Of a DNA stretch of 64,000 bases, positions 1-31,499 are shown in pieces. Position 1 is the first letter of the stretch. Every line of letters starts with the position of its first letter. A program made the translations under genes and the position numbers. The DNA comes from Collinsella tanakaei YIT 12063 (GTDB lineage: Bacteria; Actinomycetota; Coriobacteriia; Coriobacteriales; Coriobacteriaceae), in NCBI RefSeq assembly GCF_000225705.1, contig NZ_JH126468.1, forward strand, positions 62,001 to 126,000, given 5' to 3'. Below the pieces are notes generated by a model that was given only the letters and a program-made list of their open reading frames with translations, did not search any database and had not been told where the DNA came from.

Positions 1-593
1 AGAGCGCATAGTCGAACAAATCTCCTAAATGCAGCTAGATTCCTTACGTCAAGGTACTCGGCTACATCTCTTTCAACATATGTATCAAGATAGCTGGAGA
101 AAAACATCGAGGCGGGCATCCCTGTGCTCAATAGGCGCGGATAACCGCCCGAGAACATAAAGCTCTCGGGACTGCACGCCGGGTTATAATCACGGCACTC
201 TTCATACGAAACAGAAAGCAATTTGAGCAAGCCGACCCTTCCCGCCAGCGACTGGCCGATGCGCTTAGTGAGCAGAAAGTTCTGCGAACCCGATAAGATA
301 TATTGCCCCGCCTCACCACGCTCGTCCGACACTACCTGAATAACTGAAAACAACTCGGGAGCATATTGCGCCTCATCGATGATTAGTTTTGACGGACGAG
401 TTCGAATGAACCCCACAGGATCTTCCAATGCCTCGCGGCGCAGCTGCGGGTCTTCAAGATTGGCATAAGCGTAAGCATCAAAAACACTCTTGACCAATGT
501 CGACTTGCCGCTCTGACGAGGACCGGTTACCGAAAGGACTGGAAACCACTGCGCTTGCGCCCGCATCTGATCCGCCATGATTCGATTAATCAT
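1..593 (-). CDS. AAA_14 (DUF4143-type) ATP-binding protein, partial
   Basis: The frame opens at an ATG whose first base is 593 and runs off the left edge, so about 197 N-terminal residues are visible. They show a Walker A motif (TGPRQSGKST, residues 23-32), a Walker B (LIIDEAQ, 70-76) and SGSQNF at 101-106, the pattern of AAA_14 ATPases that normally end in a DUF4143 nuclease-like domain lying outside the window. The biological role of this family is not settled; members are scattered singly in gut bacterial genomes. Nothing nearby suggests an operon partner. Identity is firm at family level only, and whether the gene is intact cannot be seen. Confidence 0.8.
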   Translation of the reverse strand, partial: MINRIMADQMRAQAQWFPVLSVTGPRQSGKSTLVKSVFDAYAYANLEDPQLRREALEDPVGFIRTRPSKLIIDEAQYAPELFSVIQVVSDERGEAGQYILSGSQNFLLTKRIGQSLAGRVGLLKLLSVSYEECRDYNPACSPESFMFSGGYPRLLSTGMPASMFFSSYLDTYVERDVAEYLDVRNLAAFRRFVRLCA

Positions 594-14689: not shown

Positions 14690-15790
14690 CTAGAAGCTGA
14701 GCCCACGGAAGGCGTCGCGATAGAGGTTCACCAGGTCCTGCTTGGAAACGGGGCGCACGTTGGGAAGCGTGCAGCGGTCGTGCATCGCCGCCTCCGCCAT
14801 GTCGCTGATAGCCCGCTCGAACTCCAGGGCGTCGATGCGCTCGATACCGGAGAGAGAGTGCTCGATGTCCAACGTCTGGCGCAGGTCCAAAACGGCGCGA
14901 AGCAGCTCGTCGGCACCCGCCATGCCCAGCTCGCCGGCAAGGCGCTCGTAGGGCCCGCGATACTTCTGCTCCGCCATGTGAAACGCCATCACGTAGGGCA
15001 GCAGCACCGCGTTGAGGCGACCATGGGCAACGTGGAAGCGACCGCCCAGGGCGTGCGCCAGGGAGTGGTTGATGCCCAGACCTGCATTGGTGAACGCCAC
15101 GCCGGCGATGCAAGAAGCCTCGATCATGCGGGCGCGGCTACGCATGGACATGCCGTCGCGATAGACCGCAGGCAGGTCGGAAAGCACGGTGCGAACGGCC
15201 TTGACCGCCATTGCGTCGGTGAACGCGGTGGCGTCCTGCGAAACGTAGGCCTCGATGGCGTGGGTCAGCACGTCCATGCCCGTGTCGGCGGTGATGCGCG
15301 CCGGGACGCTGCGGGTAAAGTCGGCCTCAAGCAGGGCGCCGTCGGGAGCGAGCAGGTCGTCGATCAAAACAACCTTGTTCTCGCCGCGCGTGATGACCGC
15401 GAAGTTGGTGACCTCGGAGCCGGTGCCGGCCGTTGTGGGAATGGCCAGGAAATAGGGCTTGGCCATACCGCGGCCGCAGCAGGTGTACAGAACCGCCTTG
15501 GCGGCATCGATGCAGGAGCCGCCGCCAAACGCGATCACCATGTCGGGACGAGCCGCCTCGACCGCCGCGACGCCCTCGTCCACCAGCTCCTGGCTGGGAT
15601 CGGGCTTGACGTTGGAATAGGTCTGGTAGCGCGCGCCCGCCGGCAGGTGCTGGGCCATCTTGGCGACCATGCCGGATGACTCCAAAAAGCCGTCGGTGAT
15701 GATGAAGATGTCGCGATAGGGCATCTGCTCAAGGCGCTCGAGGGCACGGGACCCAAAGAACAGCTCGGTCTTCAGCTTGAAATCGTTCAT
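14690..15790 (-). CDS. cutO: Iron-containing alcohol dehydrogenase of the choline microcompartment
   Basis: Reduces acetaldehyde to ethanol with NADH, regenerating NAD+ inside the shell. The 366-residue protein is a group III iron-dependent dehydrogenase: FGGGSCIDAAKAV binds NAD, IPTTAGTGSEVT follows, and the metal ligands lie in DTGMDVLTHAIEAYVS and NHSLAHALGGRFHVAHG. It is the last gene of the long minus-strand operon, 30 bp after the MerR regulator, and pairs with the acetaldehyde dehydrogenase at 19471. No obvious encapsulation tail is seen. The symbol follows the choline-utilisation nomenclature by context. Confidence 0.88.
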   Translation of the reverse strand: MNDFKLKTELFFGSRALERLEQMPYRDIFIITDGFLESSGMVAKMAQHLPAGARYQTYSNVKPDPSQELVDEGVAAVEAARPDMVIAFGGGSCIDAAKAVLYTCCGRGMAKPYFLAIPTTAGTGSEVTNFAVITRGENKVVLIDDLLAPDGALLEADFTRSVPARITADTGMDVLTHAIEAYVSQDATAFTDAMAVKAVRTVLSDLPAVYRDGMSMRSRARMIEASCIAGVAFTNAGLGINHSLAHALGGRFHVAHGRLNAVLLPYVMAFHMAEQKYRGPYERLAGELGMAGADELLRAVLDLRQTLDIEHSLSGIERIDALEFERAISDMAEAAMHDRCTLPNVRPVSKQDLVNLYRDAFRGLSF

Positions 15791-19470: not shown

Positions 19471-21084
19471 TTAGACGCCCTTGAATGCGTTAACGAGCTC
19501 TTCGACCATGCGCTTTAGCTCTTCTGCGTCGATGACGTCGGACTTGCGCTCGCCGTCAGATACCGGAGCGGACGCGTTGGGGGCGCAGCAGCCGCAGCCG
19601 GCGGAATAGGTGATGCCGGACACGCCCTTGGGCTCGCTGGGAGCAGCGGCGGATACGGGTGCGCAAGCGCCGTGCTTCTTGGCGAGCTCGGGGTGGTACT
19701 TAGCGAAGAGCTCGTCATGGGCGACCAGCTCGACGGGCTCGATGAGGCCGTTGGCGACGCGCTTGACGTTGATCAGGTGCTCGGGACCGACGTTCTCGGA
19801 AATGGAGCTGCCGCCCCAGGTGCCGCAGCCCAGCGTGAGCGCGATGTCCAGGCCGGTGGAAAGGCCGGTGCCGCCCTGGGTGCCTCCCGTGTTGATGAGG
19901 ATGCGGGACGCGGGCTTGATGGAGAACTTGCGGACTATGTCCTTGCTCTCCGTATGGATGCTCATGGTGTGGCCGATGCCGTTCTGGAGCAGGGCGATGG
20001 ACAGATCGCAGGCCTCCTCCCAGTTATCGACGGTATAGAAGGCGAGCACGCTGGTGAGCTTCTCGTAGGACAGCGGCCAGGCGTCGCCCACGCCGTGCTG
20101 CTCGCCGATGAGCACGCGGGTGCCGGCGGGAACGGAGATGCCGGCGGCGTCGGCGATGACCTGGGCGGAACGGCCCACGAACTTGGGGCTCATGGCGTGG
20201 CCGTTGCGGAACAGCAGGGTGCAGACCTTGCGGCACTCCTCTTCGTTGAGGAAATAGGCTCCCTGGCGGGTGAACTCGGCGACGACGGCGTCGCGGTTGC
20301 AGGTCTCGCAGATGACGCTCTGCTCGGAGGCGCAGATGGTGCCGTTATCGAAGGTCTTGGAGGCCATGATGCGGCGGACGGCGGCGGGCACGTCGGCGGT
20401 GCGCTCGATGTAGGCGGGCGAGTTGCCGGCGCCGACGCCCAAAGCGGGCTTGCCGGAGCTATAGGCGGCCTTGACCATGCCGGGACCGCCGGTCGCGATG
20501 ATCATGGCGACCTCGGGCGAGTGCATGAGCTCGTTGGTGGCGGCCATGGTGGACAGCGAGATGCCCTGGATGACGTTCTCGGGAGCGCCCGCCTCGACGG
20601 CGGCGTCGTTCATGATCTTGATCGCCATGGCGGTGCACTTGGCGGCCGCCGGATGGGGCGAGAAGACGATGGAGTTGCGCGCCTTGATGGCGATCATGGA
20701 CTTGTAGAGTACCGTGGACGTGGGGTTGGTGGACGGGACGATACCCATCAGCAGGCCCACGGGCTCGGCCAAGACGATGGTCTGCTTCTTCTCGTCGACC
20801 TCGATGATGCCGATGGTCTTCTTGTCGCGGATCTGCTCGTAGAGCAGGCCCGAGGCCATGTGGTTCTTGTAAACCTTGTCGCACACCACGCCAAAACCGG
20901 TCTCCTCGACGGCCATCTGGGCCAGGACCTCGGCGTTTGCCTCTGCAGCCTCGACCATGTTGCGCAGGATGCGGTCAATCTGCTCCTCGCTGTAATGCGC
21001 GATCTGGTTAGCAGCAACCTTGCCGCGGCGAGCCAGCTCGCGAGCGGCCTGGATGCTCTGAAGATCGAAATCAAACTCCTGCAT
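19471..21084 (-). CDS. cutF: CoA-acylating acetaldehyde dehydrogenase of the microcompartment
   Basis: Oxidises acetaldehyde from choline cleavage to acetyl-CoA with NAD+ and CoA. The 537-residue protein belongs to the PduP/EutE/AdhE-N group: ATGGPGMVKAAYSSGKPALG forms part of the cofactor site and TFDNGTICASEQS carries the catalytic cysteine at residue 251. After the enzyme domain comes a linker containing SAGCGCCAPNAS, then an amphipathic C-terminal helix (DVIDAEELKRMVEELVNAF) that looks like an encapsulation peptide. The start at 21084 follows GAAAGGAGGCACG. It provides NADH for the alcohol dehydrogenase and acetyl-CoA for PduL. Confidence 0.93.
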   Translation of the reverse strand: MQEFDFDLQSIQAARELARRGKVAANQIAHYSEEQIDRILRNMVEAAEANAEVLAQMAVEETGFGVVCDKVYKNHMASGLLYEQIRDKKTIGIIEVDEKKQTIVLAEPVGLLMGIVPSTNPTSTVLYKSMIAIKARNSIVFSPHPAAAKCTAMAIKIMNDAAVEAGAPENVIQGISLSTMAATNELMHSPEVAMIIATGGPGMVKAAYSSGKPALGVGAGNSPAYIERTADVPAAVRRIMASKTFDNGTICASEQSVICETCNRDAVVAEFTRQGAYFLNEEECRKVCTLLFRNGHAMSPKFVGRSAQVIADAAGISVPAGTRVLIGEQHGVGDAWPLSYEKLTSVLAFYTVDNWEEACDLSIALLQNGIGHTMSIHTESKDIVRKFSIKPASRILINTGGTQGGTGLSTGLDIALTLGCGTWGGSSISENVGPEHLINVKRVANGLIEPVELVAHDELFAKYHPELAKKHGACAPVSAAAPSEPKGVSGITYSAGCGCCAPNASAPVSDGERKSDVIDAEELKRMVEELVNAFKGV

Positions 21085-21131
21085 CGTGCCTCCTTTCAAT
21101 CACGCGATGCCTGATGGCGATGAAAGCGTTC

Positions 21132-21575
21132 TTACTTGGCGGCGGGCAGGATGGTCTCGACGGAGCCGTCGGGGCGAGGGATGACGTGGACGGATAGGAG
21201 CTCGCCTACGCGCTGCGCGGCGGCGGCGCCGGCGTCGGTAGCGGCCTTGACTGCTCCCACGTCGCCGCGGACGAACACGGTGACGAGGCCGCCGCCGACC
21301 TGCTCCTTGCCGACGAGGGTGACGTTGGCCGCCTTGACCATGGCGTCAGCGGCCTCGACCGCGCCTACGAGTCCCTTGGTCTCGATCATGCCGAGGGCCT
21401 GAGTCATGTTTGCCATCTTGATCTCCTTCTTGGGGGTCTGCTCGGGCTGCTTGGGTTCAGCCGTCGCGGGTGCTTCTTGCTTGGGTTCCTTTGCGGCGTG
21501 CGCTGCGGGAGCCTTCTTGGGGGCCTCTACCGGAGCCTCCTGCTCGCCGGCGGCCGCAGGCTTCTTCTCTGCCAT
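21132..21575 (-). CDS. BMC-H shell protein with N-terminal Ala/Pro/Lys extension
   Basis: A 147-residue product: residues 54-147 are a canonical BMC-H domain ([20 protein letters not shown] and onward), almost identical to the neighbouring 95-residue protein. Residues 1-53 are a low-complexity, charged Ala/Pro/Lys/Glu/Gln segment (for example [17 protein letters not shown]). The codon for Met54 is preceded by AAGGAG, the same ribosome site used by the neighbouring copy, so the gene probably makes both a long and a short form. The extension could be a flexible tail on one shell face, or an anchor. It begins nine bases after the neighbouring gene ends. Confidence 0.9.
21414..21428 (-). promoter_or_regulatory. 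Internal ribosome-binding site and start codon
   Basis: AAGGAG (21423-21428 on the minus strand) stands six bases before the in-frame ATG at 21416 within the extended BMC-H gene. The same bases precede the start of the short copy at 21872. This predicts a 94-residue short product from the gene. Confidence 0.65.
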
Positions 21576-21584
21576 GGCGAGCCT

Positions 21585-21872
21585 TTAGGCCTGGGTGCCG
21601 GGCAGGATGGTCTCGACGGAGCCGTCGGGGCGAGGGATGACGTGGACGGAGAGGAGCTCGCCCACGCGCTGAGCGGCGGCGGCGCCGGCGTCGGTAGCGG
21701 CCTTGACTGCTCCCACGTCGCCGCGGACGAACACGGTGACGAGGCCGCCGCCGACCTGCTCCTTGCCGACGAGGGTGACGTTGGCCGCCTTGACCATGGC
21801 GTCAGCGGCCTCGACCGCGCCTACGAGCCCCTTGGTCTCGATCATGCCGAGGGCCTGAGTCATGTTTGCCAT
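21585..21872 (-). CDS. BMC-H shell protein, tandem copy
   Basis: A 95-residue hexameric shell protein. Residues 1-91 match Met54 onward of the neighbouring extended protein with essentially no change; only the last few residues differ (GTQA against AAK). The two gene bodies are also nearly identical at DNA level, which points to recent tandem duplication or gene conversion. The ATG follows AAGGAGATCAAG. It is probably a major facet protein. Confidence 0.95.
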
Positions 21873-23509: not shown

Positions 23510-24355
23510 CTAGCGCCCCTCTCCTTGGACCTTGGCCCTGCAACCGCAGGCGATTCCCAAGGGCGTAACAAACATGGGTCGGCTCGGCTTCACCACGGGC
23601 ATGCCAAGCTGGTGCTCCATGCGGTCCTCGATGCCGGTGAGCTCTGCTGTGCCGCCCACCAAGATGACCTCGGGCACCTCAAAGCCCCTGCAGGAACGCT
23701 CCACGATGCTCGCGACCTTATCCACGGTGGGACGCACGATCCTGAGCACCTCGGCGTGGTTGGCGGAATCGCGCTTGTAGCTCTCCGCCTCATCGAAACC
23801 CACGCCCTTCGCGCCGGCGAGCACCAGCGAGAAATGGGTTCCTCCCGTGGACTCGTCCACGCACTGCACCACCCGCCCGTCGCAAAGCACGGAGATGCCG
23901 GTGGTGCCACCGCCGATATCGACCACGGCGCCGTTCTCGATTCCCATCACCATGTTTGCGGCGGTGGGCTCGTCAAAGACCGCCACCACGTCGAACCCGG
24001 CGCTCTCGGCGACGTTTCTCACCACGCCGCCGTCCAGGTTCTCCGTTCCCGGAGGGATCGCCACGGCCGCCTGGAAAAGCTCGCAGCCAAGGCGGCCCTC
24101 GAGCTGCTCCTTAAGGGAACGGGCGATGTCGCAGGCGCCCATGTAATCCACCACCATGCCGTCGCGGACGACATCGGCGAACTGGTAAGCGCAGGCGACG
24201 GGCTCCCCGGCAGCGTCCACCACCACAAGGACGATGAACGCGGTGCCCACGTCGAGCCCGCAGTAGAGTTCCGCGCCCTCGGCGACCGGCTCGGGAGAAT
24301 CGACCGTGGCCATCAGGACGTCGAGCAGACGATTGGTTTCCTTCAAATCAACCAT
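23510..24355 (-). CDS. EutJ-like actin/Hsp70-fold ATPase
   Basis: A 281-residue protein of the EutJ family, with the actin/Hsp70 nucleotide-binding motifs LYCGLDVGTAFIVLVV (phosphate 1), GAVVDIGGGTTGISVL (phosphate 2) and VILVGGTAELTGIE (adenosine). It lacks the substrate-binding domain of Hsp70 and is thought to be a chaperone or reactivase for microcompartment enzymes. I place the start at the ATG at 24355 (MVDLKETNRLLDVL); the longer open frame upstream is arginine/proline/serine-rich antisense-like sequence. It overlaps the EutT-like gene by 8 bp. Confidence 0.88.
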   Translation of the reverse strand: MVDLKETNRLLDVLMATVDSPEPVAEGAELYCGLDVGTAFIVLVVVDAAGEPVACAYQFADVVRDGMVVDYMGACDIARSLKEQLEGRLGCELFQAAVAIPPGTENLDGGVVRNVAESAGFDVVAVFDEPTAANMVMGIENGAVVDIGGGTTGISVLCDGRVVQCVDESTGGTHFSLVLAGAKGVGFDEAESYKRDSANHAEVLRIVRPTVDKVASIVERSCRGFEVPEVILVGGTAELTGIEDRMEHQLGMPVVKPSRPMFVTPLGIACGCRAKVQGEGR

Positions 24356-24938
24356 GGTCGACCTCCTCCTGGGCCTTGGCGATCGCTCGGGCGATCTCGT
24401 ATCGGACGCGTCGGGCCTCGTGGACCCAGGTTTCCATGCGGTCTCGAGTCTCCTCGGCCAAATCGGCCTTGGCGCTCGTCCAGAAATGCATGGTCCGGAC
24501 GAGCTCGGCGTCGAGCAACGCCGCCTCGAAGTAGATCGGATGCAAGTCGGACGCCGGCGTCGGCACGCATGCCGGCTCGTCGTCCTCCGCATCCAAGACG
24601 ACCCCGCCGGGGTCCCCCTGCCTCCAAGCCGCTCCCGCGGCGTAGCAGGCGCGAGACAACCCCCGGCTGATGCCGCAGCTGCGGCGCGCGAGCAAGCAGA
24701 GCTTTGCGCCGAGCACGCGGACGTCGTCGAGGAAGGAGTCGCACAGCCGCTGGTCATCGGGCTTGGGCGCCCCCGTCTCCGCACGGGGCAGAGCCGTTCC
24801 GGCATCGAACGTGATGCGGAAATCGACCAGGAACTGGCGAGCACCCGGCGTCAAGCGCGTATCGGGCGCAAGACGGTAGGTGTCGAACGGGCAGGCGGCG
24901 TATTCATCGCGCAGCTCGCTCTCCGTCACGTAGCGCAT
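24348..24938 (-). CDS. EutT-like protein lacking the cobalamin cysteine motif
   Basis: A 196-residue protein resembling the EutT/cobalamin adenosyltransferase family of microcompartment loci: MRYVTESELRDEY and TRLTPGARQFLVDFRI at the N-terminus, followed by a helical bundle ending in RVRYEIARAIAKAQEE. The HX11CCXXC metal site of EutT is not present. The pathway is a B12-independent glycyl-radical route, so this is unlikely to be a working adenosyltransferase and may be a structural or regulatory relic. GAGAGGAGGAAGC precedes the ATG. Confidence 0.65.
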   Translation of the reverse strand: MRYVTESELRDEYAACPFDTYRLAPDTRLTPGARQFLVDFRITFDAGTALPRAETGAPKPDDQRLCDSFLDDVRVLGAKLCLLARRSCGISRGLSRACYAAGAAWRQGDPGGVVLDAEDDEPACVPTPASDLHPIYFEAALLDAELVRTMHFWTSAKADLAEETRDRMETWVHEARRVRYEIARAIAKAQEEVDHG

Positions 24939-25773: not shown

Positions 25774-26718
25774 TTAATGGCTCACGAGGTTGACGGTGAA
25801 GTCGGCGTCGCCTATCCAGGACTTGATGCGCTTAAGGTCGGCCTCGGTGAGCGAGGGATCGTCCTTGATGGCGTAATCAAGGTCCAGCTGGCCGTACTTG
25901 CCCACGCCGAGCTTGTGGTACGGAAGCAGGTCGACGCCGTCGAAGTTCTTCTGGTAGCGATAGGGCGTGAAGAAGGCGATCACCGCATCGATCTCCTCCT
26001 TGCTGTCGTTGACCCCCTTGAGCAGGGGCATGCGCACGCGCACGTTGAAGCCGTTCTCAAGCAGCGTGCGAACATTCTCCAAGATCAGCTCGTTGTTGGC
26101 GCCGGTCCACTGCTTGTGCTTGACCGGGTCCATGTGCTTGATATCGAAGAGGAACAAATCGACGTGCTCGGCGACCTTCAAAAGCGTCTTGGTGGGAACG
26201 TAGCCGCAGGTCTCGACGGCGGTGTGGTAGCCGCGCTTATGGCAGGCGACCAGCAGGCTCAAGGCTGCCTCGGGCTGTGCCAGGGCTTCGCCGCCGGAGA
26301 GCGTGATGCCGCCGCCGGACATGCGGTAGAAGTCCGCGTCCTGATCGAAGAAGGCCAGAAGCTCGTCGATCGACTTGTCCTCGCCCATGATCTTCAGGGC
26401 GTTGTGCAGGCAAGCCTCCTCGCACAAATGGCATCCCATGCACTGGACGTCGCGACGGACCCTGTGCTCGCCCGCCACCATCTGGTGGATGTCGACGGGG
26501 CATACGTCCACGCATGCGCCGCAGTTGACGCATGCCGAGGCCTTGAACATGACCTCGTGCCCGCGATGCTGGCTCTCGGGATTGGAGCACCATGCGCACC
26601 GCAGCGGGCAACCCTTGAAAAACGCCATCGACCGAACGCCGGGGCCGTCGTACATGTTGTACTTCTGAAGGTTGAATATACGAGCTTTACGCTCTACATT
26701 CGCTTGCTCAAGACTCAA
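25774..26718 (-). CDS. cutD: Choline TMA-lyase activating enzyme (radical SAM)
   Basis: Uses S-adenosylmethionine and a reduced 4Fe-4S cluster to install the glycyl radical on CutC. The 314-residue protein has the radical SAM motif in FKGCPLRCAWCSNPES, two ferredoxin-like clusters (CVNCGACVDVCP and CMGCHLCEEAC) typical of glycyl-radical activases of this class, and SGGGITLSGGEALAQPE for SAM binding. The start is a TTG at 26718 behind AAGGAGGT. It lies 63 bp after cutC. Its specificity for CutC is inferred from adjacency. Confidence 0.95.
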   Translation of the reverse strand: MSLEQANVERKARIFNLQKYNMYDGPGVRSMAFFKGCPLRCAWCSNPESQHRGHEVMFKASACVNCGACVDVCPVDIHQMVAGEHRVRRDVQCMGCHLCEEACLHNALKIMGEDKSIDELLAFFDQDADFYRMSGGGITLSGGEALAQPEAALSLLVACHKRGYHTAVETCGYVPTKTLLKVAEHVDLFLFDIKHMDPVKHKQWTGANNELILENVRTLLENGFNVRVRMPLLKGVNDSKEEIDAVIAFFTPYRYQKNFDGVDLLPYHKLGVGKYGQLDLDYAIKDDPSLTEADLKRIKSWIGDADFTVNLVSH

Positions 26719-29333: not shown

Positions 29334-30866
29334 TCAGTACGTTTTAACGTCTTCCAGCAAGCTGGAGAACCAATTGGACATTGACTCGGAAGCGGGCTTC
29401 TCCCGGCATTCCTCAAGGCGATCCGGCTCCTTCTCGCATGCGCTTTCGCAGGCGGTCGGCGCCGCAGCCTCATCGGGATCCATGAGGCCCGCATCCTTCA
29501 ACAGCTCGCAGTCGCCATGGGAGGCACCCACGCCAACCTGGCGGCGGCGGATGAAGTCTCGATAGGTCACGCCCATATCAGATGAGCAGGCGTTATCCCA
29601 TCCGGTAATGGTCAGCGTCTTGGGTAGCGTGGAATGACAACCGGTCGCGCCCATTCCCGTTCCCACGTTGACCAAGATGCGACCGACGGGCTTTTTGAGG
29701 ACGAATTGCCTCACCACCTCGCCGTCGCGGGAGAAGATCGAAAGCGCGTTGCCGTCCCCGCTGTTGAGGATGAGCTCGATGCACTTCTCGCAGGCACCGC
29801 GCCAACTCTCCTCGACGTAGTAGGACAGCACCGGGCCGTACTTGGCCTTTGAGAAGACGCTGTGCTCGGAAACATAGGGCTTCTCGACCACAAGCACCTT
29901 GGTGCTCTCCGGGACCACCAACCCGGCGCGGCGCGCCATGTCGAAGGCGGACTTGCCGATCAGCTCGCGATACGGCTTGCCGCACGGCTTGAAGAGCGTC
30001 TTAGCCAGGGACTCGGCCTCTTCATCGCTCAGGAAATAGCACCCGCGCGCCTTGAGCTGAGCCCTGAACTTCTCGTCCACCGCCCGCTCGACCACAAGGG
30101 ATTGCTCGGCTCCGGGCATCATGCCGTAGCAGAAGCTCTTGCCCGCGACCACCTCTTCGGCGCAATGAGCCAGGTCGGCGGTCTCCTCGACAAAGACCGG
30201 GTTGTTGCCGATCGATGCGTGGTAGACGTCCTTGCCGCCCAAGTCGCTGGCGACCACGCGCTCGTATTCGCGCGAATCGATCACCATGCGAACGGCGGGT
30301 TGGCAGGCGAGCCAAGCGTCGCCCTCCTCGGAGTACTGGTGCAGAAAGCCCAGCGCCTCGAGCGGGTAATGGCAGGCGGCGGCTACATCGGCCACCTCAG
30401 CCATCAGCGACTCGCAAGTCGCGTGCGTGCGAACGCGGGCAGAGAAGATCACGGGGGTCTTTGCCTTGACCGCGCACAGAAGCTGGCTTAACAGGGTGGG
30501 AACCGTCAGCCAATCGGGCAAAAACGAGACGACCACGCCCTTGGGCAGTCCCGTCTCGATGCCATGGGTCCAGCCATCGCGGTAGATCTGCTGTACCTCG
30601 AGCTGCGAGGAGACCTCATCGAGCATCTCGGTGAGAACCCACTCGGTCAGAGCGCGCTCGTCTTCCGGGTTGCCGTAATCGCTCTCGCGACAGGCCTGCT
30701 TGGCGAGGTCGCCCGCCTGCGGCAGCAGCCTCTCTCGAAGCTGCTGCAGAAAGCCACGGACCAAACCGTCGCCCAGGCCCTCGAGCACGCCTTGGGATTC
30801 CTCGGCATGCTCCAACAGGATGCGCGCTTCCTGAATGGATAGAAGATCGTTATCGATCAGCGGCAT
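29334..30866 (-). CDS. cutB: Aldehyde dehydrogenase homologue lacking the catalytic cysteine
   Basis: A 510-residue relative of the acetaldehyde dehydrogenase at 19471. Aligned on the shared EQS, the catalytic segment TFDNGTICASEQS is replaced by [13 protein letters not shown], which puts proline (residue 251) where cysteine should be. The glycine-rich cofactor segment is also changed ([20 protein letters not shown] in place of ATGGPGMVKAAY). It ends in a cysteine/glutamate-rich linker and a short helix ([14 protein letters not shown]) that could target the lumen. It is probably a structural or regulatory pseudoenzyme, or an enzyme with different chemistry. Many choline loci carry two dehydrogenase genes, hence the tentative symbol. 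Confidence 0.8.
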
Positions 30867-30881
30867 TGAACATGCGCCCCC

Positions 30882-31193
30882 TTAGTACGGCAGCAGGTTC
30901 TCAACGCAGTAGCGCTGGGTGATCTTTTTAAGATCGGGATGCGGACGAGGAATGACAACGGAGCTGTAGACCTCCGCGCCCATCTCGCCCACCGCGGCCA
31001 CGCCGGCCTCGACCGCAGCCTCGACCGCCGCGACGTCGCCCTCGACCAGAATCGAGATGTAGCCCGATGCAGTGTTCTCGTAACCGATAAGCGTCACGTC
31101 GCCGGCCTTGCACATGGCGTCGGCTGCCTCGAGGACAAAGACCAGGCCAAAGGTCTCGATGGCGCCAAGCGCTCCGGAATAACCCTGTGTCAT
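30882..31193 (-). CDS. BMC-H shell protein
   Basis: A 103-residue hexameric shell protein: YSGALGAIETFGLVFVLEAA, GYENTASGYISILVEGDVAA and SSVVIPRPHPDLKKI. It differs from the other BMC-H copies at pore and edge positions and has a C-terminal extension (TQRYCVENLLPY). It lies ten bases after the previous shell gene and is the second of a pair upstream of the core enzymes. Confidence 0.95.
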   Translation of the reverse strand: MTQGYSGALGAIETFGLVFVLEAADAMCKAGDVTLIGYENTASGYISILVEGDVAAVEAAVEAGVAAVGEMGAEVYSSVVIPRPHPDLKKITQRYCVENLLPY

Positions 31194-31202
31194 GGCTTCC
31201 TC

Positions 31203-31499
31203 CTAGAAATCGACGTCGTGGACGGAGACCACGTCGCCCACAGCGGGCACGGGTCGCTTCATAACGTTCTGGGCCGTCAGCTTGCCGATGGACTTGGCTG
31301 CCTCGGCGCCGGCCTTGACGGCCGCCTCGCAGGCCGCCACGTCGCCGCGGACAATGACGGTTACCAGCGTGGAGCCAACGTTCTCGTAGCTGATGAGCTC
31401 CGTGTCGCCGGCCTTGAGCATGGCGTCGGCGGCGAGGAGAGCGGGGACCATGCCGATGGTCTCGATAAGGCCGATAGCCTGTTCTCCCTGATAGCGCAT
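31203..31499 (-). CDS. BMC-H shell protein
   Basis: A 98-residue hexameric shell protein with EQAIGLIETIGMVPALLAAD and VTVIVRGDVAACEAAVKAG, and a C-terminal tail (VGDVVSVHDVDF) not found in the other copies. It is about equally distant from the other four BMC-H proteins, so the operon supplies several distinct facet tiles. It follows the small helical gene by 15 bp. Confidence 0.95.
   Translation of the reverse strand: MRYQGEQAIGLIETIGMVPALLAADAMLKAGDTELISYENVGSTLVTVIVRGDVAACEAAVKAGAEAAKSIGKLTAQNVMKRPVPAVGDVVSVHDVDF

Follow-up and report, generated by a model that had tools for sequence, protein, structure and literature searches.

A catalytically dead aldehyde dehydrogenase encoded before cutC in a GRM1 locus of Collinsella tanakaei, a candidate structural subunit of the enzyme core

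The window analysed here is a stretch of 64,000 nucleotides from Collinsella tanakaei YIT 12063, and its minus strand carries a type I (GRM1) cut microcompartment locus with cutC, cutD and BMC shell genes (Table 1). Its CutC lacks a long N-terminal extension, and the gene preceding cutC, the stop of which lies 14 bp from the cutC start, encodes a homologue of the acylating aldehyde dehydrogenases (AldDH) that is referred to here as the dead AldDH. The protein belongs to the superfamily according to Pfam Aldedh (PF00171; 31.4 bits, gathering cut-off 23) and falls outside the equivalog family of EutE-type acetylating acetaldehyde dehydrogenases, since it reaches 238.8 bits against TIGR02518 where the cut-off is 620.1. 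Two further AldDH homologues are present in the genome, namely the active paralogue of the same locus and a 921-aa ORF that is taken to be AdhE, judged by its length and match.

Table 1. Features of the cut locus, in positions of the window
Feature	Position	Strand	Basis
Iron-type alcohol dehydrogenase	14690..15790	-	PRK13805 291.8 bits, below cut-off
Active acylating acetaldehyde dehydrogenase paralogue, GTICASEQS intact	19471..21099	-	TIGR02518 714.5 bits, cut-off 620.1
cutD, radical SAM activase	25774..26718	-	TIGR04395 523.9 bits, cut-off 360
cutC, choline trimethylamine-lyase, 845 aa	26782..29319	-	TIGR04394 1650.7 bits, cut-off 1050
Dead AldDH homologue (GRM1 second AldDH)	29334..30866	-	510 aa from ATG, intact ORF
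C-terminal amphipathic-looking helix of the dead AldDH (residues 493-510)	29337..29390	-	model helix 493-509, after linker 468-492
BMC-H shell protein, immediately preceding the dead AldDH	30882..31193	-	ORF match
Second BMC-H shell protein	31203..31499	-	ORF match

Elsewhere in the locus two adjacent BMC-H genes (21132-21575 and 21585-21872, minus strand) have near-identical shell domains, and one of the pair is extended at its N-terminus by about 50 residues rich in K, P and A. No NCBIfam model matched the 196-aa ORF at 24348-24938 (minus strand), which lies between a eutP-like and a eutJ-like gene. A hypothetical protein of similar size is encoded just before eutJ in E. raffinosus (L116), and the ORF is perhaps a conserved unannotated part of GRM1.

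The preliminary description of this gene, made from the letters of the DNA, had reported proline in place of the catalytic cysteine and the loss of the glycine-rich cofactor segment, and both observations hold. Pro251 stands in gapless alignment against the cysteine of the paralogue, which reads FDNGTICASEQS in this region, and phmmer alignments to the solved acylating AldDHs 3k9d and 5j78 give the same register at the site with high posterior values. The cofactor segment reads ATGGPGMVKAAYSSGKPALGVGAGN in the paralogue, and its glycines are largely gone in the dead AldDH. The losses extend beyond those described earlier. When the catalytic set of Cphy1178 (N138 as oxyanion residue, C269, E357 and H387; PMC4762007) was mapped by motif onto the dead AldDH, the oxyanion Asn was found as Leu120, the CoA-side Glu as Ala341 and the general-base His as Asn373, so that all four residues are gone in the window protein, whereas all four are kept in the 69 active AldDHs of the survey described below.

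The fold, on the other hand, appears to be kept. An AlphaFold2 model of the dead AldDH based on 63 sequences (mean pLDDT 88.0, pTM 0.86) contains the whole acylating-AldDH fold, and VIA-align places 446 aligned residues of it on 3k9d (Z 50.9, rmsd 2.8 A) and 446 on 5j78 (Z 49.3, 2.7 A), the entries of the same two enzymes also taking the top ranks in a Foldseek search. According to this model the acetylating AldDHs of Geobacillus (5j78/5j7i) and Listeria (3k9d) would share their whole fold with the dead AldDH (Z 49-51), but they differ from it in sequence (about 27% identity) and in their catalytic residues, which are missing from the window protein. Residues 468-492 form a disordered linker (pLDDT < 50) in the model, and the helix that follows looks like an encapsulation peptide and may have a role in encapsulation. 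Shell binding by this helix is not universal, however, because it is absent from several dead members of 463-468 aa.

A survey of the catalytic position across cut loci, as had been proposed for this gene, was anchored on CutC and thus independent of AldDH, and it covered the best 80 of 265 relatives (species genomes). An AldDH ORF lies before cutC in 78 of these 80 loci, a position shared by the window gene, whose 510-aa frame has no breaks, in agreement with its earlier description as intact and directly before cutC. Of the 78 upstream genes, 77 gave a readable residue at the catalytic column, the remaining copy being cut by a contig end, and two copies split over two frames (L041, L093) were each counted once, by the half holding the site. 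Cys was found at this column in none of the 77 (P 34, S 33, A 7, V 2, T 1), as opposed to 69 out of 69 downstream AldDHs, this second gene having been found in 69 of the 80 loci; the pattern is therefore not due to chance. In addition, all 70 full-length orthologues that lie away from contig edges have a BMC-H ORF no more than 600 bp upstream; one further copy is situated at a contig edge and does not count among the 70. In two MAG loci (L086, L101) cutC is present but the stretch examined yielded no AldDH, a BMC gene immediately preceding cutC in the former, and these two could represent natural losses.

Out of 71 full-length dead copies, 62 were aligned together with the window protein, and the catalytic Cys is missing from all 63 aligned. 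Most frequently N and C are lost together (26 copies), followed by the loss of all four residues (14, including the window), of C and E (7) and of N, C and H (6), while N, C and E are gone in 4, C alone in 4, C, E and H in 1 and C and H in 1. Parsimony on a tree of 41 rows requires at least 10 changes among P, S, A, T and V at the site, by which a special role for proline is ruled out; since the site drifts among five residues, the proline is incidental and not a selected trait. The earlier suggestion that a cysteine five residues upstream might stand in as nucleophile did not hold up across orthologues. Cys246 is present, but it occurs in only 8 of the 77 readable orthologues, seven of them from Coriobacteriia, and for this reason is not a general replacement nucleophile; the same applies to a Cys one residue nearer the site, which is found in some other orthologues and likewise not in general.

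Estimates of dN/dS by the Nei-Gojobori method lay between 0.043 and 0.232 for the dead gene (26 of 28 pairs computable, two giving no value), compared with 0.030-0.247 (26 pairs) in the active paralogue and 0.009-0.179 (25 pairs) in cutC. Single values are rough because many dS exceed 1; none of them is near neutrality. The view that a different role keeps the fold under selection is supported by the low dN/dS, the position before cutC in 78 of the 80 loci surveyed and the whole fold of the AlphaFold2 model. Taken together, the dead AldDH has lost its catalytic residues, is under purifying selection, occupies a constant position and, in the predicted structure, retains the fold.

Among 49 matched loci, the mean column identity is 0.45 for the dead and 0.72 for the active AldDH, and the steepest fall is seen in the cofactor loop at residues 195-209 (0.26 against 0.97). 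Three regions are more conserved in the dead than in the active protein, namely the 15-residue window 380-394 (0.70 against 0.58) and the windows 3-17 (0.76 against 0.71) and 351-365 (0.74 against 0.71); the top value was reached in 0 of 2000 position shuffles, a procedure that ignores the correlation of neighbouring positions. In Cphy1178, helix 395-407 touches the oligomerisation domain of the neighbouring subunit (PMC4762007), and residues 380-394 probably correspond to this helix, as judged by the spacing from the HT motif and not by coordinates. The sequence comparison thus indicates that constraint has left the active site and now lies on three helices, of which the strongest would match the subunit-contact helix of related tetramers. 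Hallmarks of the dead clade are Glu19, Tyr331 and Cys362, each present in 62 of 63 copies, position 19 being Arg in 67 of 69 actives. Cys362 lies in a helix with a near-invariant ACEKC motif (within residues 351-369), the second Cys of which is found in 62 of 63 dead copies versus 4 of 69 actives, with both cysteines in helix 355-369 of the model; a CxxC metal or redox site is a candidate reading of this motif.

Phylogenetic analysis places the dead copies in one clade. In the tree that contains the window and other Actinomycetota, 41 rows fall on one side of a branch with an SH-aLRT of 100, and in a second tree 11 dead rows without the window, spanning Bacillota and Thermodesulfobacteriota, are joined with 100/100. 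The Cys-bearing CutF of the GRM2 loci of E. coli, Klebsiella and Proteus groups with the dead clade and not with the GRM1 actives (SH-aLRT 99 with E. coli alone, 99/93, and 97/92 without AdhE), in trees that included only four EUT2-like comparison rows and a Klebsiella row that is a 437-aa piece. The alternative, in which CutF is placed with the GRM1 actives, obtained p values of 0.042 and 0.091 in AU tests, so that a sister position of GRM2 CutF to the dead clade can be called suggestive. The best identities of each GRM2 CutF are 53-54% with dead AldDHs, 49-50% with active ones and 57-58% with EUT2-like enzymes.

An inactive AldDH in GRM1 loci has been described before. Axen et al. 2014 found that, wherever a GRM1 locus has two AldDHs, one of the pair carries Ser or Pro in place of the Cys; they proposed a scaffold or regulator role for the inactive protein and named the actinobacterium Olsenella uli as a bearer of GRM1 (PMC4207490), and in Sutter et al. 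2021 the second AldDH of GRM1A and GRM1B is marked as 'putatively inactive' (PMC8217296); both the finding and the scaffold or regulator idea are therefore already known. The window protein resembles this second GRM1 AldDH in its type of locus, its Cys-bearing partner AldDH and the Pro for Cys, and it shows every mark of the inactive group, i.e. a cut/BMC locus, a Cys-bearing partner, Ser or Pro at the site and a place in the dead clade. Ser and Pro are the two residues given in the survey of Axen et al., to which the present one adds Ala, Val and Thr. This wider range of residues and the relocated constraint are new as far as the literature searched is concerned, and with the exception of the tree figure of Sutter et al. 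2021 the same is true of the possible kinship with GRM2 CutF.

GRM2 CutF has been shown to move full-length CutC into larger assemblies, which required the N-terminal extension of CutC, and it was proposed to be a multivalent cross-linker of CutC (PMC6971018). The cutF gene of GRM2 loci also follows BMC-H genes, and CutF (e.g. of Klebsiella pneumoniae) is the sister clade of the dead AldDH in our trees; it differs, however, by keeping the catalytic Cys. GRM2 CutC is 1128 aa long with a long N-terminal extension (L114, L115), whereas of the 68 GRM1 CutC ORFs detected 67 measure 845-888 aa and one has 1047 aa from stop to stop; GRM1 CutC is without the GRM2 extension. With a CutC of 845 aa and two AldDHs instead of a single one, the window does not belong to the GRM2 cut loci.

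On balance, the gene product is the known second, inactive AldDH of GRM1 loci, a pseudoenzyme that most likely serves the enzyme core as a structural subunit. In such a scheme an acylating AldDH would have kept its fold and given up its chemistry, catalysis being carried out by the active paralogue. The dead AldDH could use the AldDH tetramer surfaces to pair with the active paralogue, with itself or with both, and it may lie next to CutC and contribute to bringing the enzymes together beneath the shell, which the C-terminal helix could touch in most dead members; we infer these partners, the gathering of the core and the encapsulation from the evidence given above. Scaffolding of CutC, or hetero-oligomers that include the active paralogue, had already been suggested for this protein, and as a candidate role this fits both the conservation of the putative contact helix and the CutF link of GRM2. 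Against a structural role stand the two MAG loci out of 80 (L086, L101) that have cutC without the dead gene.

A function as regulator or ligand sensor seems unlikely to us; here CoA, NAD or acetaldehyde would be bound but not turned over, and the protein would either tune CutC or the active AldDH or act as a buffer of CoA inside the shell. Regulation is among the options named by Axen et al. 2014 (PMC4207490), and of the 33 copies with Ser at the site (S-type) 31 keep the His and 30 the Glu; because many of them keep both, ligand binding could be what selection maintains in the S-type copies. The lineage of the window protein, in contrast, no longer has any of N, C, E and H and retains little of the cofactor loop, the conservation of which has collapsed in the dead copies of the matched loci. 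The same S-type copies, 33 of 77 with His and Glu mostly kept, might instead use their Ser, and the window protein its nearby Cys246, as the nucleophile of an acyl-transfer or esterase reaction. We regard such an altered chemistry as improbable, given that the site holds Pro in 34 of the 77 copies, Ala in 7, Val in 2 and Thr in 1, that a Cys at -5 is restricted to so few of them, and that exchange of the Cys for Ala abolished the activity of Cphy1178 (PMC4762007).

The idea of a recent pseudogene on its way out is disfavoured by the data and can hardly be upheld, although the dead gene changes more rapidly than the active copy (0.45 versus 0.72 mean column identity), is missing from two MAG loci and is split into two frames in L041 and L093. 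The window gene and most of its orthologues have an unbroken frame, the clade spans several phyla with full support, and dN/dS is far below 1, which speaks strongly against a pseudogene; many dS values exceed 1 and are unreliable.

Returning to the structural subunit, the simplest reading that we infer is that the GRM1 copy would have retained linking as its role, with the chemistry falling to the other AldDH. It is conceivable, albeit quite tentatively, that GRM1 and GRM2 are mirror images in which each type carries one dead enzyme copy as a linker of the core. In GRM2, the active CutF would also cross-link the core, and its binding to CutC would depend on a dead N-terminal domain that resembles CutC. 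The GRM1 members of this AldDH lineage would only link, another lineage would catalyse and CutC would stay short. GRM1 choline microcompartments make trimethylamine in the gut, and a dead AldDH beside cutC is a simple candidate for a linker in the packing of their enzymes. The link to GRM2 CutF makes the scaffold proposal testable, in that the dead AldDH should bind CutC and the active AldDH, in the manner reported for GRM2 CutF with full-length CutC.

Two of the surveyed loci stand out by their AldDHs. A MAG labelled Alkalibaculum bacchi (L057, 2-1147) has a dead AldDH of the Coriobacteriia type (480 bits to the window protein), which points to either a transfer or a binning error. In a Mailhella MAG (L109, 14246-15745), the second, Cys-bearing AldDH does not join the clade formed by the remaining GRM1 actives and scores 458 bits, compared with about 660-950 for most of them, as if the original enzyme had been replaced.
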